Shown: in pieces, positions 24,651 to 38,132 of the stretch | How the letters are laid out: each line of letters begins with the position of its first letter | Numbering within the stretch: the stretch's first letter is position 1 | Assembly (NCBI GenBank): GCA_020161395.1 | Contig: JAIUOE010000001.1 | Span: forward strand, 606,332-670,331 | Source: Bacteroidota bacterium | Lineage (GTDB): Bacteria; Bacteroidota; Ignavibacteria; Ignavibacteriales; Ignavibacteriaceae | Direction of reading: 5' to 3' | Length of the DNA: 64,000 nucleotides | Translations under genes and position numbers: made by a program | Notes under the pieces: generated by a model | Databases searched by the model: none | What the model was told of the DNA's origin: nothing | What the model saw: the letters and a program-made list of their open reading frames with translations, nothing else

Positions 24651-26600
24651 CTACTTCAGAGCATTCTCCACTATTTCCACAACTTCAGCTTTCCGGTACG
24701 GTTTTGAAAGGTAATGGGTACAGCCTCCCCGAAGAAAATCGGCTTTGTCATTCCCCATGGCATATGCGGTAACTGCAACGACAGGGACGCCCTGGTATTC
24801 GGGCAGTTTTTTGATCTCTTTCACCACATCCATGCCGTTCATGCCGGTTCCAAGATTTATGTCCAGAAGAAAAATGTCATATTTTTTCGATTTGATCATT
24901 TCGATGGCTTTTTCACCGGTTTCAGCCATTTCCACATCACAAATTTTCCGAAGGAACAGTCCCATTACATCGAGATTTATCGGGTCATCTTCCACATAAA
25001 GTGCAACAGGTCTCTGCCCCTGTTTTCCCGAAAACACTCGATTGGGTGTTTCAGTTGTTACGCCGGGGGCAATTTCTTCTTCCCTGTCTGCATCCGGTGG
25101 TGTTTCCGGGAATTTGACAGTGAAAACAGAACCTTCACCCACCTCACTTTCGACTGATATGACACCATCCATAAGTTCAACGGTTCTTTTGGTGATCGTG
25201 AGTCCGAGTCCCGTTCCCTGATAATAACGGGATTTCCCCTCGCTCACCTGACGGAACTCTTCCCAAATCAGGTCGAAATTGGATTTTTCTATTCCAATTC
25301 CGGAATCTTTTACTTTCAGGTAAACCCATCCTTTACCCTCAATCTCTTCCTTTCCAATCTCGATGCCTACATTTCCCCTTTCGGTAAATTTAATGGCATT
25401 ATCAACGAGGTTATAAAGGATTCTGTTTAGGAGCCGTTCATCCACACGGGAGAAAAGCTGCTCATTGTGAACAACTGTATCCAGTTTCAGATTTTTCTTC
25501 TCGATCTCAGGGATGAAGTCATCCAGACTGTGCCTTACCAGATCGACAATATTTACATCCTTGGCAAATACTGCAAGGTTTTCAGCTTCCGCTTCAGAAA
25601 GATCAAGGATGAAGTTGAGAGTTTCACTCAGTCTTTTGCCCGAGTCATAGATTCCCTGCGACATGCTTACAAGATCCGGGTCATCCAGGGTGGAAATCAG
25701 AATCTCCGAATAGCCCAAAATACCATTCAGGGGAGTCCGAAGTTCATGATTCATGTTCGCAAGAAAGTTCGATTTCATCCTGTTGAGCGCTTCGGCTTTA
25801 TTCTTTGCTTCCAGAATCTCTCGGGCAGCCCGTTTGCTCTCGGTGATGTCCCTGAGGATAACCATTGTAAATATGTCACCATTCATCTCATAAGTGGAGA
25901 CATGCACATCCATCTCGAAAGAAGTGCCGTCTTTTCGTAAACCGAGTGTTTCATAACCCGAAGGCACATTTTCCCTCTTTGCCCTTTTTACGATGTAATC
26001 GTGGACTTTCCCCCTTTCCCCGGGTGCAATCAAATCCTGGACAGGGATGCCGGCTATCTCGTCACTTGTTTCGTAGCTGAACAGTTTCACATAAGCAGGA
26101 TTCACCATTATGTGAATACCATCTTTTGAGACCCCGATTGCATCGACTGAGTGCTCAAAAACATTTCGAAACCTTTTTTCGCTGGTTTCTTTGGCTTCTA
26201 TTGCCTCCCGTTTTTGCCTGCGATGTTCCGCCTCTTTTAATTCCCGTTCAATTGCAGGTATCAATCTTTGAAGGTTCCCCTTCATTATGTAATCCTGAGC
26301 TCCTGATTTCATAGCCATTACAGCCACTTCTTCACCAATATTTCCGGAGATAATTATGAAAGGGATATCAGGGTCAAGTTCCCGGACCGTCCGGAGGGCA
26401 GAAATTCCATCAAACATCGGCATTGAGTAGTCGCTAAGAACAATATCCCAGCGCTGCTGTTTGAAAGCGTTCAGCAGGTCCTCTTTGGTCTCTACCTGGG
26501 AGAATTGAGGTTCATAGTTGCCCTGCCTCAGTTTCATGAGCAACAGTTCCCTGTCGTCTTCTGAATCCTCGACAATTAAAACACGGAGTGGGGTTTTCAT
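24651..26600 (-). CDS. Hybrid sensor histidine kinase (REC-PAS-HisKA-HATPase-REC)
   Basis: This 649-residue cytoplasmic phosphorelay protein has five domains. An N-terminal receiver carries phospho-acceptor D57 in the WDIVLSDYSMP block. A PAS domain spans about 135-255 and ends in the RDITESKRA motif. The HisKA motif NMNHELRTPLNG has H285. The HATPase domain has NAIKF, DSGIGIE and GTGLGL boxes. A C-terminal receiver (533-649) has D580 in FLLDINLG. No membrane segment is present. A receiver at the N-terminus means the protein can accept phosphate from another kinase. It lies 15 bases after the response regulator gene and so probably forms one relay with the regulator and the copper-ATPase/ETR kinase upstream. 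Confidence 0.9.
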   Translation of the reverse strand: MKTPLRVLIVEDSEDDRELLLMKLRQGNYEPQFSQVETKEDLLNAFKQQRWDIVLSDYSMPMFDGISALRTVRELDPDIPFIIISGNIGEEVAVMAMKSGAQDYIMKGNLQRLIPAIERELKEAEHRRQKREAIEAKETSEKRFRNVFEHSVDAIGVSKDGIHIMVNPAYVKLFSYETSDEIAGIPVQDLIAPGERGKVHDYIVKRAKRENVPSGYETLGLRKDGTSFEMDVHVSTYEMNGDIFTMVILRDITESKRAAREILEAKNKAEALNRMKSNFLANMNHELRTPLNGILGYSEILISTLDDPDLVSMSQGIYDSGKRLSETLNFILDLSEAEAENLAVFAKDVNIVDLVRHSLDDFIPEIEKKNLKLDTVVHNEQLFSRVDERLLNRILYNLVDNAIKFTERGNVGIEIGKEEIEGKGWVYLKVKDSGIGIEKSNFDLIWEEFRQVSEGKSRYYQGTGLGLTITKRTVELMDGVISVESEVGEGSVFTVKFPETPPDADREEEIAPGVTTETPNRVFSGKQGQRPVALYVEDDPINLDVMGLFLRKICDVEMAETGEKAIEMIKSKKYDIFLLDINLGTGMNGMDVVKEIKKLPEYQGVPVVAVTAYAMGNDKADFLRGGCTHYLSKPYRKAEVVEIVENALK

Positions 26601-26615
26601 ACTTTTCCCGGATGA

Positions 26616-27056
26616 TTATTTGTTGAATGATTTTTGAGGAGCTTCGTTGAGCATTAGCCAGTATATCCCGATATTGCTTGCCACTTCAACAAATTTTAGA
26701 AAATCGACAGGTTTTCTTATAAAGCTGTTGGCACCAAGTCCATAGCTGGCAAGAATATCCTCCTCCTCGTTCGACGATGTAAGAATGACCACGGGGATAA
26801 ATCTTGTTTTTTGATTCTCTCTGATTCTTTTTAACACTTCCAAACCGTCGATTTTCGGAAGTTTAAGGTCCAGAATTATCAAAGCCGGCAATTCTGAATC
26901 GTTGCCTTTTCTTTCGAAAAGGTAGTCGACGGCTTCCTGCCCGTCCCGTGCCACATCAATTTTGTTAGTTATGTTATTCTTTTTCAGAGCTCGAATAGTC
27001 AGCAATTCATCATCAGAATTATCTTCAACCAGCAGAATTGTTTTATTGATAGCCAT
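26616..27056 (-). CDS. Single-domain response regulator (Rcp1-like)
   Basis: This 146-residue receiver has no output domain. Visible are the acidic pocket (ED at 11-12), phospho-acceptor D63 in ALIILDLKLPKIDG, the conserved T in VVILTSS and the Lys in FIRKPVDF. The long loop between strand 2 and strand 3 (LFERKGNDSELP) is typical of the Rcp1 group, which are partners of phytochrome-type and related kinases. Its start codon directly follows the stop codon of the copper-ATPase/ETR kinase gene, so the two are co-translated. It most likely shuttles phosphate from that kinase to the downstream hybrid kinase. Confidence 0.9.
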   Translation of the reverse strand: MAINKTILLVEDNSDDELLTIRALKKNNITNKIDVARDGQEAVDYLFERKGNDSELPALIILDLKLPKIDGLEVLKRIRENQKTRFIPVVILTSSNEEEDILASYGLGANSFIRKPVDFLKFVEVASNIGIYWLMLNEAPQKSFNK

Positions 27057-30000
27057 TTAGTGCTCCTTATCAGAGTTTAGAGTGAAATAAAAAACAGTAC
27101 CTTCTCCAACTTTACTCTCCGCCCATACATCACCTTTGTGACGCCGGATAATGCGTTGAACTGTAGCGAGACCCACACCTGTACCGCTGAATTCATCGGC
27201 TCTGTGGAGGCGCTGGAAAGGTGTAAAAAGTTTATCGATATATTCCATGTTGAAGCCGGCGCCGTTGTCTTTCACGAAGTATGTCTTTCTTCCGTTTATT
27301 GTAGTCAGCCCGAATTCAATGGTTGCTTTTTCTTTTTTAGAGCTGAATTTCCATGCGTTGTTCAGCAGATTTTGAAGTACGGCTTCCATCAGGGTGGGGT
27401 CTGCCTGGTCGACCATGTCGGGAGTGATCGAGATGTCGACAATTCTTTCCGGCTCCCTCTCTTTCAATTCCTGACAGATTGCTGAAGCGATATCCGAAAG
27501 ATTTACCTGCTTCAATTTCATTTCCGCCCTGGTTAAGCGGGAGAGACTGAGCATTTCATCGATCAGTTGACCCATTCTTTGAGCATTAAATCTTAGCCGG
27601 TTTAGGTACATCTGCCCCTGATCGTCAAAATGGTCAGAATATTCCTCGAGAAGAGCCTGACTGAATCCGTCGATACTTCTCAATGGTGCTCTTAAATCGT
27701 GCGACACAGAGTAGCTGAAAGATTCAAGTTCCTTGTTGGTGGCTGCAAGCTGTGAAGTCCTTTCCTCCACCCTGTGCTCAAGCTGCTGGTTCAGCTCCCT
27801 TATCTCGTTTTCTGCCAGAATTCTTGCAGTGAGATCGACGCCGCATGAATAGTTCTTTTCACCGAGTGTAATAAAAGTCCAGGATATGTTTCGTTTCGAG
27901 CCATCCTTACAGGTGACTATAGACTCGAAAGGAGGAATTTTTGTTTGTGTGGCGATGGCATGGTCGACCATTCTCATCCATTCCTCAGAGATAGCCTTTC
28001 GATAGTTCTCATCAGGATATGCGAGGGGCCACCAGTCGTTTCCTGAACCGACCTCCTTTTCCGTATAACCGAAAAGCCTGACGAATTCGGGGTTAATGTA
28101 TTCTGTAAATTGTTCGACTCCCGTTGAAAGATGGATAGCCACAGGAATTGTCTCGATCATCGTACGGAACTGTTTCTCGCTCTCTCTTAAGGCTATTTCA
28201 GCAGACTTTCTTTCAGTTATATCATTTCCCTGTGCAATGGTAGCCCTAATTTCAATATCATTTTTATCGAGGACATTGGCAGAGTTCCACAGAACCGTTC
28301 TGATTTCACCATCTTTTCTGAGGATTTCGATTTCAACCGATTCCCATCTTTCCCCCTCGGATGTCTTTCTGATTAATTCCAGCGAGTCTTCCGCTGTCTC
28401 GGGAGGGAAGAGAAAATCGAGCTTTTTACCAATAACTTCCTCCTTGGAGTATCCACTGAGATTTTCGAATGCATGATTAAACCGGGTGATGGCAAGAGCC
28501 GGATCCCAAACAATAATCGGTGCATTAGCATAATTGAAGAGGTTTTCGAGATACTCGTTAGTTTCATGGAGAGCGGCTTCAGCTTTTAGTCTTTCCCTTA
28601 TTTCATTTACAAGATTTTCGTTTGCAACAAGAAGTTCAGCCGTTCTTTCAGCTACTCTTTGCTCCACCTCTTTATAGGCTTTTTGGAGTTCAGTTTGAGT
28701 AAAAATCAGTTTTTCCTTTTCGCTCTGAAGCTCCGAGTTCAATTGTTTCAATTGTTCGGGGCTCGGAATTGCCAGAAGTTTAGGCAGAATGGGCCAGACT
28801 ATAATTGCTGTTGAGACAGAAATGACGGCACATGCTGCATCCACCGATGCCTGCCACCAGTCGACCGACCACCACAATCCGATAATATGGACTACATGGG
28901 TGGTTCCGCAGGCAAGAATAAACAATCCGAAGAGGACAAGAATCCAACTGAACGGGAGATCTTTTCTTTTACGAATAAAAATAACAAGAAAGACCGGTAT
29001 CGAGGCATAGGAAATTGCAATGAGTCCGTTCGAAATCGCCATCACCATCATAAGAAGTGGTGTCATACCCGTCTCGATTACATTTTTTATCTCCATTTCG
29101 CTCTTCGACATGGCGAGCATCGGAAGAGTAATAAGAACCGCGAGAGAAATGGTCGGGAGCGCAAGTCTTGGTATCAGCTCAATCGATTGCCTGGCGATCG
29201 ATTTTGGAGGTTCGAAAGTTCTCACTTTATACCCCTTTAACCGGAGGCTGTTTGAAACAACAAATATGGAACTGAATGCCATTGCACCGGCGGCAAACAT
29301 CGGGCTGAGGAGTCCGAATCCCGCAACCGGAATCAGGGCAATGTTATAAAAAAGAGCCCAGATGAGGTTTTGAACAATGGTTTCGGAAGTGCCGCGGGAG
29401 AGGGAAATTGCCTTGCCGATGCCGGTAAGGTCGCCGCTTATCAGAGTGATTCCGGCTGCAGCAATGGCGATATCCGTGCCTGTCCCAATTGCTATCCCAA
29501 CATCTGCCTGAGCAAGAGCAGGGGCATCATTAATTCCGTCTCCAACCATTGCGACAACGGGAGAAGAGTAATTCCCGAGAGACCGGGCATTCTGCATTTC
29601 TTTAATTGCATCAACTTTACCGCCCGGTGGCACCTCAGCTATTACTCTTGAGATACCAACCTGTTTCGCTATTGAATTGGCTGTCGATTTGTTGTCGCCT
29701 GTTATCATCACCACTTCAATGCCAAGCTGCTGAAGTTCGGCAATGGCTTCCGCTGAACCTGCTTTTACAGTATCAGCTACCGCAATAATGCCAATCACTT
29801 GAAGAGGGAGGTTGTTTACCGGATCGGAGATGGTAACGGTCATCACCGTTTTTCCATCTTCCTCGAGAGGCAGAATCTCCTTTTCGAGTTGCCGGAGATC
29901 CAAGCCGTCATTCTTCATCATACGGGAGTTGCCGATCGAAATGGTCTTGTCGCCAACCAGTGCTCTTACACCAAAGCCGGCGAACGCCCTGAACTTTGAA

Positions 30001-31655
30001 GGTCGCAAAGGATTAAGACTTCTTTCCTCAGCGGCTCTCACAATCGCTCTGCCTATGGGGTGTTCCGAACCCTTCTCCGCACAGGCAGCAAGATGAAGAA
30101 CCTCGTTTTTTGTGTATCCGTTCAGGGGAATAATATCCTTTACCTGTAGTTCGCCTGTTGTGATGGTGCCTGTTTTGTCGAGCACCACAATATTGATTCT
30201 ACTTGCTTTCTCGAGAATTTCGCTGTTCTTGAAGAGAATTCCGTTTTCCGCCCCTTTTGAGGTACCGACCATGATTGCTGTCGGGGTTGCCAGACCAATT
30301 GCACACGGGCATGCGATCACAAGAACTGCTATCGCATTTATCATCGCCCCTGCCCAATCGAGTTGAGCTACATAAATCCATCCTGTGAAAGTGAAAAATG
30401 CGAGGGCAATTATTAGCGGTACAAAATATTTGCCGATTTCATCCGTTAATTTCTGAATTGGTGCCTTGCTTCCCTGCGCCTCTTTTACAAGCCGGATTAT
30501 ATGTGCGAGGGTGGTGTTTTTACCCACATTTACAGCCTCAAACTTTATTAACCCTTCACGGTTTATGGTGCCGCTAAACACTTTATCACCGGGACCCTTG
30601 CTTACCGGCATCGACTCTCCCGTTATCATCGACTCTTCAAACGCCGACTTGCCTTCACACACCACCCCGTCAACGGGTGCCCTTTCACCCGGTTTAAGAA
30701 GCACCACATCCCCAAAAACCACATCATTCACATCAACGGTCATCTCTGTGCCGTTCCGAATAACAGTTGCAGTTTTTGCCTGTAAACCAAACAGGACTCT
30801 TAATGCATCAGTGGTTCTGCCTTTGGCTTTTGTTTCGAGATATTTCCCGAGTCTGATGAACGCAATTATTGTCGCTCCCGTCTCAAAATATACATTCGGG
30901 CTATTTATGATACCGAGTACAACCAGAAGACTCGAGAGATATGCCACCGAAGAGCCAAGAACAATGAGCACATCCATGTTGGCTCTTCCAAGCCGGAGAC
31001 TGTGGTATGCCCCGGAATAGAACCTGCCACCGACATAAAACTGCACAATTGTTGCAACAGCGAGCATTGCATAAAGATCATATTCAAAACCGACCACCTT
31101 AAAATCGCGAAGCATGCTGTAGATGATGAGTGGAATGGTAAAAATCAGACCTGTTATCATCAATCGCCTTTGTCTTTTTAGTTCCGAAGCTCGGATTTCA
31201 GATTCAACATCCTTAAATTCTTCAGAACCATCAGTTTTTACGAGGTCAAATCCTGCCTTGCGAATCAGAGAGAGGAGTTCGGAAAGATTTGTCATTCCGG
31301 GGAAGTATTCGAGAATTGCTGTTTCGGAAGAGTAGCTGATATTTGCGGCTACCACTCCTTCGTGAGATTTAATCAGTCCGGAGAGATTTTGTGCATCAGT
31401 TTCGTCAGTCATCCCCGTGATCACCACCTCCACTTTAGCGGTGGAAACTCCATAGCCAATACGCTTGATGAATGCGATTATATCGTTTTCGGCAAGAAGT
31501 CCGTGATCGAAGGAGACATGAAGGTTTTCATTTGCATAATCGACGCGGGCTTCGAGAATACCTTTTAGCTTCCCAAGGCTCATCTCAATGCCTGACACAC
31601 AGTTCGTGCATGTCATTCCTGTCAGAGGCATGATAACATTCTTTATGTTATTCAT
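27057..31655 (-). CDS. Cu(I) P1B-ATPase fused to an ethylene-receptor-like sensor histidine kinase
   Basis: This single 1532-residue frame contains a full copper pump and a full sensor kinase. HMA domain 1 has GMTCTNC (C16, C19). A second HMA-like domain (75-142) has lost both Cys. The ATPase core shows TGES 345-348, CPC 449-451, DKTGT 493-497, HP 532-533, TGDN 652-655 and GDGIND 705-710. The Cu(I) class signature N763-x6-YN-x4-P776 and M792-x-x-SS are both present. One extra helix (831-850) leads to a three-helix ETR1-like domain (865-961) with C916 and H920. A coiled coil, two PAS domains (about 1030-1150 and 1151-1280), HisKA with H1319 in [10 protein letters not shown], and HATPase boxes (N1429, DNGAG 1463-1467, GTGVGLA 1491-1497) follow. 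The ribosome site GGAAG precedes the chosen ATG. The next gene is its likely response regulator. The domain calls are strong; ethylene as ligand is inference. Confidence 0.93.
28773..29063 (-). other. ETR1-like three-helix copper/ethylene-binding domain within the fusion
   Basis: This encodes residues 865-961 of the fusion protein. Compared from memory with Arabidopsis ETR1, the following pocket residues match: Y32 (Y883), I35 (I886), P36 (P887), I62 (I913), and the copper ligands C65 (C916) and H69 (H920) in the CGxTH motif. ETR1 D25 corresponds to N876. Helix 3 ends in a [12 protein letters not shown] stretch like the HIIPDLLSVKT of ETR1 before the coiled coil. Confidence 0.85.
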
Positions 31656-31889: not shown

Positions 31890-32918
31890 TCAATAACTCA
31901 TATGATCAAGTTTCACTTTTCCCCGGAAAACCCAGTAAATACTGATTGTATAGGCGAGGACAAATGGAATTCCGATGATTGCCATGGTTAGCATTGTTTC
32001 CAGTGTTTTTTCGGAGGATGCAGCATTGTATATCGTCAGATTATATTCGGGTGAAATTGAAGAGATTAGAAAGTTGGGGAAAAGCCCGACCGCAAAAAGT
32101 GCCATAAGGCTTAGAATTGCTGCCGATGAAGAGAGGAAGGCAAAGAAATCCTTACCCCGGTTTATCTCGCGAGGGATGTTTGCTATTGCAAGCATATTCA
32201 GAATTGCAAGAGCAAAAAATGCCGGGTGCTGTCTGAAAGGCTCAACCATGTGAGGGATGTAGATAAGGGTTGCCATCGTTGCGGTTACATAGGTGATCAC
32301 AAAGAAGATAATCGTGTTGTTTATCCACCCGCGAACCTGTTTTTGGAGTTCCCCGTCTGTTTTCATTGCGAGGTAGATTGAACCGTGCATCATGAAGGCG
32401 GCGAGGGTTGTCAGTCCGACAAGCAGAGCATATGGATTCAACATGTCAATCACACTGCTGTAGAGCTCCTTGTCTTTCCCTATTGGTAAACCGAGAATTA
32501 CATTACCGATTGTTATACCGATGAGGAGGGAAATAACCATACTTGAGATCGAAAAAGCCCTGTCCCAGCCTGCCCGCCATCTTTTCCCCTCGCTTTTACT
32601 CCTCACTTCTATCGAGACCGCCCGAAAAATCAGCACAAAAAGCAACAGCATAAAAGGGATGTAGAACCCGGAAAAAGCAGTGGCATATACATCAGGAAAT
32701 GCTGCAAAGAGGGCACCGCCTCCCGTTACAAGCCACACTTCGTTACCGTCCCAGACAGGTCCGATGGAGTTAAGTAGAATTCTCCGGTCAAGGTCCGATT
32801 TGGTAAGGAGATGAAGAGACCCGACACCAAGGTCGAAGCCATCGAGAATACCGTAACCGGACAGCAGTACGCCGATCAGGATGAACCATATCGTGTTTAT
32901 GTCTAAAGTAAATTCCAT
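31890..32918 (-). CDS. cydB: Cytochrome bd oxidase subunit II
   Basis: This 342-residue integral membrane protein is the CydB subunit of the bd-type quinol oxidase, which reduces oxygen to water without pumping protons or using copper. The N-terminus has the family motif YGILDGFDLGVG (22-33), followed by a GPVWDGNEVWLVTGGGALFAAFP block (53-75). About eight hydrophobic helices follow. Length is within the family range. The start lies 2 bases after the cydA stop. Confidence 0.93.
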   Translation of the reverse strand: MEFTLDINTIWFILIGVLLSGYGILDGFDLGVGSLHLLTKSDLDRRILLNSIGPVWDGNEVWLVTGGGALFAAFPDVYATAFSGFYIPFMLLLFVLIFRAVSIEVRSKSEGKRWRAGWDRAFSISSMVISLLIGITIGNVILGLPIGKDKELYSSVIDMLNPYALLVGLTTLAAFMMHGSIYLAMKTDGELQKQVRGWINNTIIFFVITYVTATMATLIYIPHMVEPFRQHPAFFALAILNMLAIANIPREINRGKDFFAFLSSSAAILSLMALFAVGLFPNFLISSISPEYNLTIYNAASSEKTLETMLTMAIIGIPFVLAYTISIYWVFRGKVKLDHMSY

Positions 32919-32920
32919 CG

Positions 32921-34282
32921 CTACTCCATCAACCTTGGTTTTTCGCTGAAATCAAGTTCCACTACATGATCATCGGGACCGTGTTTTATCTTCTTGTCCA
33001 ACAGATAAAGGAAGACCACAAAAAGTCCCGCATAGATCAGGGTAAAAAGCACCAGTGAAAAAATAATGTGCTCCGATGTGACAACTTTCGACAGACCGTC
33101 TGAAGTTTTGAGCAGACCGTAAACAATCCATGGTTGCCGTCCGATTTCGGCGGTATACCAGCCAAGCTGATTGGCAATCTGTGGCAAAAGAACCGAAACG
33201 ACGAGGACTTTAAGCCAGAGAGCTGAAGTGAAAAGTTTCCCCCGCCAAAGAAGGAAAAGGGAAATCAGGACAAGACCAATCAGTGTAAACCCGATAGCCA
33301 CCATGGTATGGTAGGTCTGAAAAGTCATCTGCACAGGGGGAGTTTCACCCTTTGGGAAACTGTCGAGCCCCCTGATCGGGGTTTTGGTATCTCCATGGAT
33401 CAAAAAACTTAACATTCCGGGAATAGCGATACCCGTGACAGTTTTATCTTTTTCGTTAACCCAGCCGAACATGTAAAGGTCGCCCGGAGCGAGGGAGTCA
33501 TAATGAGCTTCGAATGCTGCCAGTTTCGCCGGTTGGTTTTTTGCGACTCCCGAAGCGCTCGAATGACCTGTAAAAAGCTGAAAGAATACACCAAAAAATG
33601 CAACTCCGAGTGCAATTTTCATTCCTGCTTTTGCAATGTCTTCATGTCGCTTTTTTAGCAGGTAGTATGCGCTCACCGAAACTACAAGAAAAGCTCCGGC
33701 GAGAAATGATCCGCCGAGTGTATGGGAAAGGCGGTCGACGCTTGATGGATTAAAAACCATTGCCCAGAAATCGGTTATCTCCGCTCTTGCAACACCTCCG
33801 TTCTCAACGATGTGATATCCGGCGGGGGTCTGCTGCCATGAGTTTGCGACAACTATCCATACAGCGCTGAGCATTGATCCGAGAGAAACCATACAGGTTG
33901 AAAAGAAATGAACCCGTGGACTCACTTTGTTCCAGCCAAAAAGAAGTATCGCCAAAAAACCTGACTCGAGAAAAAAGGCAAATATCCCTTCTGCTGCGAG
34001 GGCGCTTCCAAAGATATCACCTACAAACCGGGAGTAGGTTGACCAGTTGGTGCCAAACTCGAATTCCATAACAATTCCGGTGGCAACCCCCATTGCAAAA
34101 GTCAGTGCGAATATCTTCACCCAGAATTTTGTCATTATCTCATACATCTTGTTCCCCGTTTTCAGATACAGACCCTCCATGATCACAAGGATAAGTCCAA
34201 GACCTATACTAAGTGGTGGATAGATGTAGTGAAATGAGATTGTAAAAGCAAACTGGAGTCGCGCCCAAAGTTCGGTTGTCAT
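32921..34282 (-). CDS. cydA: Cytochrome bd oxidase subunit I
   Basis: This 453-residue protein is the CydA subunit carrying haems b558, b595 and d and the quinol site. The proximal His is in [17 protein letters not shown] (H18), and a second haem His in [15 protein letters not shown]. The [13 protein letters not shown] motif near 390-402 is a family hallmark. The Q-loop between [16 protein letters not shown] and the next helix is short, as in the CIO-like form rather than the E. coli long form. About nine membrane helices. It forms an operon with cydB. Confidence 0.93.
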
Positions 34283-34455: not shown

Positions 34456-36069
34456 TTAAGCAATCTTTTCCATTTCCACTGTCTCAGGGTTGTGTTCCAC
34501 GCTGAAGAGAAACTGTGCTTTCGGGTTTTTCTCTTTGGCAAGTTCAAGCTGGTAGACTGATTCAGCCAAAAAGGTGAGGTTTTTATGTTTGTCGTGGAAA
34601 AGATTGTGGGAGCGAAGTCTCAGCAATTCTGAAATGTCGTCGATGGAGTCGTATTTGACCCAGCAGGCTCTGTCGTAGTTCAGCGGTCTGAAACGGCAGT
34701 CCGCACCATACTCGTTGATCAGGCGATACTGGATAACATCAAACTGCAGTTCACCGACAGTGCCGACTACTTTTCTGTTTGTCGAGGTTTGCAGAAAAAC
34801 CTGTGCCAGACCTTCATCGGTCAACTGCAGAATTCCCTTCTCCAGTTGTTTCGATTTAAGCGGATCGTTGAGCACCAGTTCCTTGAATATTTCGGGGGAG
34901 AAAGAGGGAATTCCCTTGAACATGAACTTCTCCCCTTCGGTAAGGGTATCACCGATCTTGAAAATGCCGGAATCATACAAGCCGATTACATCACCGGGAA
35001 ATGCTTCCTCGATCAGATTTTTATCCTGTGCCATAAAGGTTGCAGGATTAGCAAATCTGATATTTCTGTCGAGACGGACATGGTGATAAAACTTGTTTCT
35101 CTCAAATTTACCCGAACAAACCCTGAGGAAAGCGATTCTGTCACGGTGTTTCGGGTCAAGATTCGCGTGAATTTTGAAAACAAAACCTGAGAAAATGTCA
35201 CTTCCGGGTTCAATTCTTCCTTTTGTGGAATCGCGGTGTCTTGGGTTGGGTGCAATTTTAATAAAAATATCGAGCAGTTCCCTGACGCCGAAATTATTGA
35301 GTGCGCTCCCAAAAAAGACTGGGGCAAGCGAACCGTTCAGATACTCCTCTTCAACAAAATCACCGTAAACGCCGTTGATAAGGTCAAGTTCATGATCAAG
35401 TTTTTCAGCGTCTTTTCCGAAAAGTTTTACAAACTCGGGGTCGCGGGGACCTGCGAAAGTCTCCACATCCTTTTCGACTGTTTGTTTACTCGGACTGAAG
35501 AAGTTGAATGTATTTTCGAAAATATTGTAAACTCCCTTGAACTCTTTTCCCATACCGAGAGGCCAGCTAAGGGGTCTTACCCTGATATCAAGTTTTGCCT
35601 CTATTTCATCCAGCAGTTCAACGGGGTCGCGACCCTCCCGGTCAAGTTTGTTTATAAAAACAATCACAGGGGTCTCCCTCATCCGGCAGACCTTCATCAG
35701 TTTTTCCGTCTGCTCCTCAACACCTTTAACGCAATCGATAACAAGAATTACGCTGTCGACCGCTGTCAGGGTTCTGTAGGTATCCTCGGCAAAATCCTTG
35801 TGACCCGGGGTGTCAAGAAGATTGATTTTCTCCCCTTTGTAACTGAAGTTCATCACCGATGTGGTTACAGAGATACCACGCTGTTTCTCTATCTCGAGAA
35901 AGTCGGAGGTGGCGGTTTTCTTAATTTTGTTTGATTTTACCGCTCCTGCAACCTGAATTGCACCACCAAAAAGGAGGAGCTTCTCGGTTAAAGTCGTCTT
36001 TCCCGCATCGGGATGGCTGATAATTGCGAAAGTTTTTCTGCTGTTTATCTGTTTTGATATACTTGTCAT
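34456..36069 (-). CDS. prfC: Peptide chain release factor 3
   Basis: This is a 537-residue GTPase that recycles RF1/RF2 from the ribosome after termination. The G1 motif SHPDAGKTT (about 18-26), the switch region [14 protein letters not shown]3 DTPGHKDF and G4 [10 protein letters not shown] are all present. The RF3-specific start ([27 protein letters not shown] pattern) distinguishes it from EF-G. The length agrees with the family. It stands alone, with no operon partner. Confidence 0.95.
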
Positions 36070-36557: not shown

Positions 36558-38132
36558 TTACTTTATATAGGCCACCTTTACGGTTGCAGCCATTTGACCG
36601 TTCTCCTTCTGAGAAGAAACCCTTATCATGTATGTCCCGCTTGAAACATCCAGCAGGTTGAAATCAATCACCTCACTATGTTCACCTTTTGTTCTAAAGG
36701 TTGTATTTGAATAAATTTCCCTGCCCATTATGTCATAAACCGTCATGTCTATCATGCCTTCGCCCGGGACTGTGTAGTTAACCTTTGTGCTCCCGTTAAA
36801 AGGGTTTGGGCTGGTTCTTATCTTTAACTCTGTCGGAAGTTCTGCTCCAGTCTCATCCTCGACACCCGTTGGTTTTCTGACACCTTTCATAATATAGACA
36901 CGGTTGTTTATAAGAGGATAAATGAGGTTGTATTCCGCTTCCTCTCCGATACAGATATCATCTACTCCGTCACCTGTCACATCGCCTATTCTGCCTGAAA
37001 AATTGGGACTGTTATAAATACTAAAGGCATATTCATCCGCCTTCTCTGTGGGTATCGGGTTACCCCCAAGAAAAAGACGAGCCGTATAATATGAAATATG
37101 AATAATTAGATCGTTAAAACCATCCTTGTTCACATCTCCTATTGGAACCGTATATGTTGTTGCTGAATTTTGAAGATTTAGTCCCGCTTCCTCTGACAGG
37201 TTTGGTGGTTTACTACCATATGAAATTGTTTTAGTGTACCAGTAAGGAAAAATCGTTTCAGTATTTCGGAGGACAAGCTCTCCCTTACCATCACCATTCA
37301 TGTCATTGACAGCAATGATACCTGTTGTATCAAATATCTTAAAAGTGTCGGAGAAAGCGAATGAGGGATTACCGTAGTAGAATTTCCTGAAGGGACGATC
37401 CGGGATGTTCACGGGTTGGAATTCCATTGAAATATCTGTACATCCATCGCCATCTATGTCAGCAAATTGTTGAAATACCGTTGAATGGTTGCCGGAATAA
37501 TAATACGCGTTGTTAGAATCTGAAAGCATGTGATATGTTGGAATTGAATCCGTGCTACCGGTTTCGAAGAAAACGATACTTCCGGAATTTGTTGGGCGGT
37601 AACTGTGGTATGCGACTAACTCTTCCCATCCATCCCCGTTGTAATCAATTGACCCGGATTGCCCTTTAAGTCGTAGCAAATTATTACTGGAATCAGTATA
37701 GCTAAATTGAAATGTAACATCGGGTGTGTTGTCTATATTAGGCCCACCTAAAAAAATATCAAATATTGCCGGATGGGGTGGATTTGAAAACACTGTAACA
37801 ATGTCCCTGTAACCATCGCGGTTCCAGTCACAGGCAGTAGCGGCCCTCGGATATTGTATAGGAATCGAAAAAACAGGTTCCGTGGCTATTGGGTTTCCTC
37901 CCCGGAAAAACATGGCATTTGCTGCTTGAGAATTTGGATCAGGTCTTATACTCAAAACAAAGTCGTCATATCCATCGTCGTTTTGATCTCCCATATAAAC
38001 TATTGATTCATACGAAAAATACCCCTGCTTGCTGAACACTATAGTATCATACTGGGCATCAACTTCTGTTGTGAAAACAAATAAAAGAAGCAAAAAGCCT
38101 ATACCAAGCGGGTTTTGTTTTAGGTCAAACAT
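36558..38132 (-). CDS. Secreted FG-GAP/VCBS-repeat protein with type IX sorting domain
   Basis: This 524-residue protein has an N-terminal signal peptide (residues 7-26). Seven repeats carry Ca-binding-like loops: DQNDDGYDD, DWNRDGYRD, DYNGDGWEE, DIDGDGCTD, DMNGDGKGE, DVNKDGFND and DVTGDGVDD. These form an integrin-like FG-GAP beta-propeller. The C-terminal 80 residues are the type IX secretion sorting domain: RTSPNPFNGSTKVNYTVP, then MTVYDIMGREIYS, and a GTYMIRVSSQ ending. It is likely exported and displayed on or released from the cell surface. The substrate is unknown. Confidence 0.85.
   Translation of the reverse strand: MFDLKQNPLGIGFLLLLFVFTTEVDAQYDTIVFSKQGYFSYESIVYMGDQNDDGYDDFVLSIRPDPNSQAANAMFFRGGNPIATEPVFSIPIQYPRAATACDWNRDGYRDIVTVFSNPPHPAIFDIFLGGPNIDNTPDVTFQFSYTDSSNNLLRLKGQSGSIDYNGDGWEELVAYHSYRPTNSGSIVFFETGSTDSIPTYHMLSDSNNAYYYSGNHSTVFQQFADIDGDGCTDISMEFQPVNIPDRPFRKFYYGNPSFAFSDTFKIFDTTGIIAVNDMNGDGKGELVLRNTETIFPYWYTKTISYGSKPPNLSEEAGLNLQNSATTYTVPIGDVNKDGFNDLIIHISYYTARLFLGGNPIPTEKADEYAFSIYNSPNFSGRIGDVTGDGVDDICIGEEAEYNLIYPLINNRVYIMKGVRKPTGVEDETGAELPTELKIRTSPNPFNGSTKVNYTVPGEGMIDMTVYDIMGREIYSNTTFRTKGEHSEVIDFNLLDVSSGTYMIRVSSQKENGQMAATVKVAYIK

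Follow-up and report, generated by a model that had tools for sequence, protein, structure and literature searches.

Results

Gene organization at the locus

The window, by which we mean the whole 64,000-nucleotide stretch of DNA analysed, carries on its reverse strand a gene whose product joins a copper-type ATPase to a membrane domain of the ethylene-receptor type and a histidine kinase (Table 1). Translation gives 1532 amino acids with no internal stop, bearing out the continuous frame claimed in a sequence-only reading of this DNA, and the motifs listed there, CGTTH at 916-920 and His1319 among them, were all found where it had placed them. Matches above the Pfam cut-offs comprise HMA, E1-E2_ATPase, ETR1_N, PAS, HisKA (residues 1311-1375) and HATPase_c, as well as HAD.

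Table 1. Positions in the window of the fused gene, its parts and two neighbouring genes.
Feature	Position	Strand	Basis
Whole fused gene, 1532 aa: HMA, P1B-1-type copper ATPase, extra helix, ETR1_N, coil, PAS, HisKA, HATPase	27057..31655	-	Translation, Pfam/NCBIfam
HMA domain, residues 13-68, copper-binding motif GMTCTNC from residue 13	31452..31619	-	Pfam PF00403
P1B-1 ATPase core, residues 150-811	29223..31208	-	Profile matches, motifs
Predicted ninth membrane helix, residues 820-848, bridging pump and receptor	29112..29198	-	AlphaFold, conserved residues
Methionine-rich segment, predicted to face the periplasm (M846, M849, M854, M864, M869, M870, M872)	29040..29120	-	Alignment
ETR1_N receptor domain, residues 868-963	28767..29054	-	Pfam PF25487, 104.6 bits
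Asn876, position of ETR1 Asp25 / AzoEtr1 Asp35	29028..29030	-	Alignment
Cys916-x3-His920, predicted copper ligands kept from ETR1 (C65/H69)	28896..28910	-	Alignment, motif
His923, extra possible ligand, fused proteins only	28887..28889	-	Alignment
Asp939, position of ETR1 Lys91 / AzoEtr1 Lys98	28839..28841	-	Alignment
Cys942, extra possible ligand, 115 of 124 rows	28830..28832	-	Alignment
First PAS domain, residues 1034-1150	28206..28556	-	Pfam
HisKA, predicted phospho-acceptor His1319	27531..27725	-	Pfam, motif
HATPase_c kinase domain, residues 1419-1527	27075..27401	-	Pfam
Single-domain response regulator, directly adjoining the fused gene	26616..27056	-	Pfam Response_reg
Hybrid kinase: two receiver stretches, PAS, HisKA, HATPase	24651..26600	-	Pfam

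The pump half matches E1-E2_ATPase at residues 291-470 (E 1.3e-60) and reaches 561 bits with the copper P-type ATPase family TIGR01511 of NCBIfam, whose cut-off is 397; TIGR01525 is also matched above cut-off. It carries TGES (345), CPC (449-451), DKTGT (493), GDGIND (705), N-x6-YN-x4-P from residue 763 (YN at 770-771) and MxxSS (792), and profile and motifs together (CPC, DKTGT, N-x6-YN-x4-P, MxxSS and GDGxND) place it among the P1B-1 Cu(I) ATPases. These matches and motifs are shared with the CopA-type enzymes, to which the fused chain adds a ninth helix, a receptor and a kinase at the C terminus. The top-ranked solved relatives include CopA, HMA4 and ATP7B by sequence, and CopA and ATP7B by fold; the best 50 of 865 matches in a Foldseek search of the PDB are all P-type ATPases, with nothing among them for the receptor part. 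Across the fused family described below the pump is, by motif, largely intact: in the 115 of 121 proteins with CPC, the motifs DKTGT, TGDN, GDGxND and N-x6-YN-x4-P occur in all 115, MxxSS in 114, TGE and an N-terminal CxxC in 111 each, and [SG]EHP in 108.

The same genome encodes a separate CopA-like pump of 732 amino acids (on C2; 626 bits, above the family cut-off). A further P1B-like ATPase (L039, G000:C4:94000-104000) scores 312.5 bits, below the cut-off, and is followed by genes that by eye resemble those of a cbb3 oxidase. Given these other ATPases the fused pump need not serve bulk detoxification; as a likely copper exporter it does not stand alone, and it might be reserved for its own receptor.

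At the other end of the chain, the H-box SHDLRAP begins at residue 1318, from which His1319 is the predicted phospho-acceptor, and with HisKA and HATPase_c both above cut-off the module has the composition of a two-component histidine kinase. A response regulator gene adjoins it, as also in a second genome of the genus (G003), where its counterpart is 92.5% identical and occupies the same place; its product is the likely phosphoryl acceptor, and the hybrid kinase encoded beyond it is likely to be the next relay step. The bd oxidase genes cydB and cydA (31890-34282) lie immediately upstream of the fused gene and on its strand; in G003 their order is unchanged and their identity is 97.6-98.5%. 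Shared regulation with the fused gene, by copper or oxygen, is possible. Elsewhere in the window, upstream of a prfC-like gene (34456-36069), is a gene (36558-38132) for a protein with FG-GAP repeats and a type IX secretion (T9SS) sorting domain; going by this domain and by the named relatives of the fused protein, the genome probably belongs to Bacteroidota.

Recurrence of the fusion

In G003 the same 1532-residue chain is found at 93.6% identity, with no indel and with the same neighbours on both sides, and a third genome of the genus (G002) holds a piece of the fused gene cut by its contig. A genome search further identified a diverged fused member in another family of the class (G539), which keeps the same site residues and methionine pattern, and a Bacteroidales contig (L010) likewise carries a fused protein. 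The fused form is rare, occurring in 3 of 294 genomes of the class; among 395 genomes of the phylum, 20 have an ETR1_N match, and only in two, both of the window's genus, is the open frame longer than 1000 amino acids.

A database search with residues 780-1000 returned 352 proteins of 843 to 2681 amino acids. Where the source gives a name for the proteins listed, it is mostly heavy metal translocating P-type ATPase, P-type Cu+ transporter or Cu+-exporting ATPase, with PAS domain protein used for a few; the six listed with an organism are assigned to Bacteroidales, Bacteroidetes, Prolixibacteraceae or Mariniphaga. Pump and receptor occur together in all 121 of the proteins considered (that of the window and 120 listed of the 352 matches), a set that favours fused proteins since the query includes the end of the pump and the matches are at least 843 amino acids long. 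A kinase is also matched in 99 of them; the 22 without a kinase match may include proteins cut at contig ends. A search for carriage of the fused protein by phages gave no match, and among plasmids 19 records matched, mainly over the receptor part, none covering 80% of the query.

Between the window and G003, dN/dS (Nei-Gojobori) is lowest for ETR1_N, at 0.013, as against 0.040 for the junction, 0.047 for the pump and 0.054 for the kinase; both junction and receptor are thus under purifying selection. The sequence-only reading had allowed for a frameshift, or for absence of the fusion from close relatives, and had proposed a database search for ATPase, ETR domain and kinase in one chain; the intact frame and conserved gene order in G003, and the 121 database proteins, decide these points in its favour. 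An assembly or frame artefact, whether chimera or frameshift, is therefore rejected, given the indel-free chain in G003 and the joined pump and receptor in other records, and we regard the chance of it as close to nil.

A rebuilt copper site in the receptor domain

The ETR1_N profile (PF25487) is matched far above its cut-off of 27 bits, and AlphaFold predicts three helices within the domain (866-896, 904-925 and 933-960; pLDDT about 48-65). We aligned the ETR1_N regions of 124 fused or part-fused rows with those of 144 non-fused rows. The former comprise the 121 proteins with L004, L007 and L010, the G539 row standing outside them; P0086 and P0121, both of which begin inside the pump, are placed as part-fused. 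The non-fused receptors were drawn from the best 120 of 1048 matches (about 335 to 1067 amino acids) together with other rows, including AtETR1 and also L018, which has no letter at position 25; loci L043-L046 were left out of the row counts. All rows are related sequences rather than independent events, P0001 (the protein of the window) and P0002 being near identical, and P0076 and L010 the same pump. ETR1 numbering is anchored on the characterised AzoEtr1: D35, C75, H79 and K98 of this receptor, from a public Azospirillum plasmid, match the published numbering (PMC11819568) and align with N876, C916, H920 and D939 of the window's protein.

The copper ligands C65 and H69 of ETR1 are kept in 124 of 124 fused rows. 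Around them, four positions (window equivalents N876, D939, H923 and C942) separate the two sets. Position 25 is Asn in all 124 fused rows and in 1 of the 144 others (L023), 142 of which have Asp; position 91 is Asp in all 124 and in none of the 144, where Lys (138), Arg (5) or Leu (1) is found; position 72 is His in 124 of 124 as against 0 of 144; and position 94 is Cys in 115 of 124, the remainder having Thr (L010 and eight others), as against 0 of 144. The Asp25-Lys91 polar pair of ethylene receptors is thus absent from the fused protein. In a subset of 12 non-fused loci among the 144, all 12 have both Asp25 and Lys91, and two (L008 and L009) lack Cys65.

Several of these non-fused receptors are of interest in their own right. 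L023 (G209:C76:41150-41437), from the same phylum, has a natural Asn at 25 and Leu at 91 and no pump. L008 and L009 (genomes G048 and G031, of the window's family) are ETR1_N-like above cut-off with Asn for both Cys65 and Tyr32, and are possibly copper-free relatives of the receptor fold. L018 (G431:C12:287246-287527), also of the phylum, has one in-frame TGA inside its receptor match.

The ethylene-binding residues, which we take to be D25, Y32, I35, P36, I62, C65 and H69, are not all present in the fused family: the last six are kept in 119 to 121 of the 121 fused proteins, and the first is replaced throughout. Seven residues have been reported as necessary for ethylene binding (PMC6682694); mutation of Asp25 in ETR1 is reported to abolish binding, and a role in coupling binding to output is predicted for the D25-K91 pair (PMC11819568). 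As both members of this pair are changed in every fused row, and further possible soft-metal ligands are added, copper sensing appears likelier than tight ethylene sensing, and copper, rather than ethylene, would be the likeliest signal of the fused protein. In comparison with ETR1, SynEtr1 and AzoEtr1, therefore, the ETR1_N domain, the Cys65/His69 pair and a histidine kinase behind are held in common, whereas Asn25, Asp91, His72 and mostly Cys94, a row of methionines before the first helix, and the pump in front distinguish the fused protein. The earlier description of an ethylene-receptor-like domain accordingly stands for the fold and for C916 and H920 but is only partly supported for function, given Asn at position 25 and Asp at 91; its list of site residues was correct for that pair, and missed the Asn/Asp replacements, His923, Cys942 and the methionines.

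The principal rival to copper sensing, close to what the sequence-only reading had proposed, is that the domain responds with low affinity to ethylene or to some other small Cu(I)-binding molecule, such as acetylene or CO, and has its copper cofactor loaded by its own pump. The gas pocket may persist, as Y32, I35, P36 and I62 are kept alongside the C65/H69 pair, and weak responsiveness to ethylene, or to a different gas that binds Cu(I), has to be taken seriously. Exchange of a conserved membrane Asp of ETR1 for Asn, taken here to be Asp25, is reported to leave a functional receptor with an approximately 100-fold lower affinity (PMC13012798, citing Aman 2025). The loading of ETR1 by RAN1 reported in plants (PMC6656775, PMC12586476) and the terminal oxidase genes directly upstream would also suit such a receptor. 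It leaves unaccounted for the replacement of both Asp25 and Lys91 in every fused row, by an aspartate at 91 that none of the 144 non-fused rows has, and the added His, Cys and Met residues outside the known ethylene site; we consider it unlikely on balance, albeit the strongest of the alternatives to copper as the signal.

The ninth helix and the methionine row

Pump and receptor are bridged by a segment that AlphaFold models as a helix, at low pLDDT (about 49-59), in which P834, L841 and P845 are found in 121 of 121 proteins and P829 in 120. Between this helix (820-848) and the first receptor helix the model places a run of methionines (segment pLDDT about 41-58), of which M849, M864, M869, M870 and M872 are Met in all 121 proteins, M854 in 115 and M846 in 108; at 864, 869, 870 and 872, non-fused receptors have mostly Trp, Val, Trp and His. 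Receptors of the ETR type begin on the outer side of the membrane. Both termini of P1B ATPases are cytosolic, as reported for RAN1 (PMC6656775). One additional helix would therefore suit the joining of the two, and would turn the methionine row towards the periplasm, the side on which the pump releases copper; it is from these considerations that we infer the topology. The segment may, alternatively, serve the pump itself, since some near pumps keep part of it without a receptor.

Some pumps have the ninth helix and nothing beyond, and the covalent link is present in 121 of 121 proteins, both of which would suit a sensor that reads the pump cycle or copper flux through this helix, or a receptor that controls the pump, with no need for copper transfer. 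Conformational coupling of this kind leaves the invariant Cys, His, His and Met residues of the receptor unexplained, however, and sits poorly with pumps that persist without a receptor; we judge it improbable.

History of the fusion

In a quick tree of receptor domains (114 rows, 129 columns), a branch with SH-aLRT 100 separates the 47 fused rows from the 67 others. The pump tree (FastTree, 176 rows, with 45 of 89 pump-receptor-kinase rows kept) intermixes fused pumps with others whose chain stops past helix 8, past helix 9 or part-way through the receptor domain, and implies at least 21 changes of the ETR label. Among near pumps (the best 120 of 7999 scored, 102 of them at least 780 amino acids long), the tail of these 102 gave no match in 44, matched at most the ninth helix in 27, reached into the first receptor helix in 25 and went further in 6, with end positions accurate to a few residues. 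Two of the six, P0261 and P0280, cover almost the whole receptor domain; on inspection by eye, the former keeps the Cys without the His, and the latter has neither. Together with P0244, P0255 and P0258, these are copper pumps that end in pieces of a receptor domain (the first helix alone, the third alone, or most of the domain but with the Cys/His pair broken), and they have the appearance of fusions in decay.

The simplest reading is a single fusion after which the sensor was lost repeatedly, as this fits both the single receptor branch and these remnants; on the pump tree there may have been several independent joins. The full fused signature was found in 0 of the 144 non-fused rows, the length ranges and partial listings of the match sets being such that a short stand-alone protein with the signature could be missed. 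That pumps persist without the sensor, while none of the rows examined has the signature sensor apart from a pump, fits a sensor which needs the product of the pump. No pump-like frame was found beside the non-fused receptor genes of the phylum (0 of 19 loci, about 8 kb on each side), so that the link between pump and receptor comes wholly from the fusion.

The intermixing of near pumps with and without a receptor, at no fewer than those 21 changes, would also fit two halves that share a chain for the sake of co-expression and do not act on each other. We think this very unlikely, as the fused receptors carry private invariant residues and show a lower dN/dS than any other part compared.

Discussion

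The fusion of a P1B-1 copper ATPase with an ethylene-receptor-type kinase is, from the sequences compared here, a real and recurrent family with a rebuilt copper site, and is undescribed as far as the literature was searched. That search, which covered titles and the beginnings of abstracts and few subscription papers, showed, among the matches listed, no description of a fusion between a P-type ATPase and an ethylene-receptor domain. The novelty claimed for the architecture in the sequence-only reading holds to this extent, and is qualified by the fact that such sequences are already public under names like heavy metal translocating P-type ATPase.

That the attached receptor would get its Cu(I) from the pump, and that its copper occupancy would set kinase activity, is a proposition to which we give an even chance. 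In a fuller form, to which we lend slightly less weight, the ATPase would pass Cu(I) across the membrane, by way of the methionine row, into a receptor domain turned copper sensor, and the kinase would read the product of the pump. Cu(I) would be taken from the cytoplasm by the HMA domain and the pump, and, with the start of the receptor put on the periplasmic side by the ninth helix, the released ion might pass along M849, M854, M864, M869, M870 and M872 into a site formed by C916, H920, H923 and C942, with N876 and D939 beside it. Binding there would shift the helices and the coil at 966-1014, setting the kinase, from which the phosphoryl group would move to the adjoining response regulator and perhaps on to the hybrid kinase. 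The whole chain would thus act as a pump that reports its own product. A cytosolic rather than periplasmic handover may be argued from the contact between RAN1 and ETR1, which is reported to run mainly through the cytosolic N-terminal metal-binding domains of RAN1 (PMC6656775); the HMA domain could hand over copper on that side, but the methionine row argues for the other.

Membrane transport domains joined to histidine kinases are familiar from CbrA and the Amt-kinase fusions; the present protein differs from these in combining a primary-active metal pump with a separate receptor that has a predicted metal site. CusS works beside a separate efflux system and has a periplasmic domain of its own, whereas the fused protein has an ETR-type membrane site and its own pump. 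Periplasmic copper is the reported signal of CusS-type kinases (PMC10100754). The plant precedent offered by the sequence-only reading, that of RAN1 and ETR1, is sound: in Arabidopsis, a P1B-type copper ATPase, RAN1 (HMA7), is reported to supply copper to ETR-type receptors, and to contact the ETR1 membrane domain directly (PMC6656775, PMC12586476). There, however, pump and receptor are two separate proteins and the receptor senses ethylene, while here they form one chain.

Copper supply to plant ethylene receptors, and the handover from the pump, have been described as unclear (PMC12586476). With pump and receptor in one chain, such handover is directly testable in a single purified protein, and the fused clade offers a natural set of changes at the Asp25-Lys91 pair of ETR1. 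More broadly, the clade suggests that copper sensing is within reach of the ethylene-receptor fold. If the proposed transfer of copper from pump to receptor is true, the fused protein would be a self-metallating receptor, and as such a new type of metal sensor, in which the pump-receptor pairing of plant RAN1 and ETR1 would have arisen in cis.
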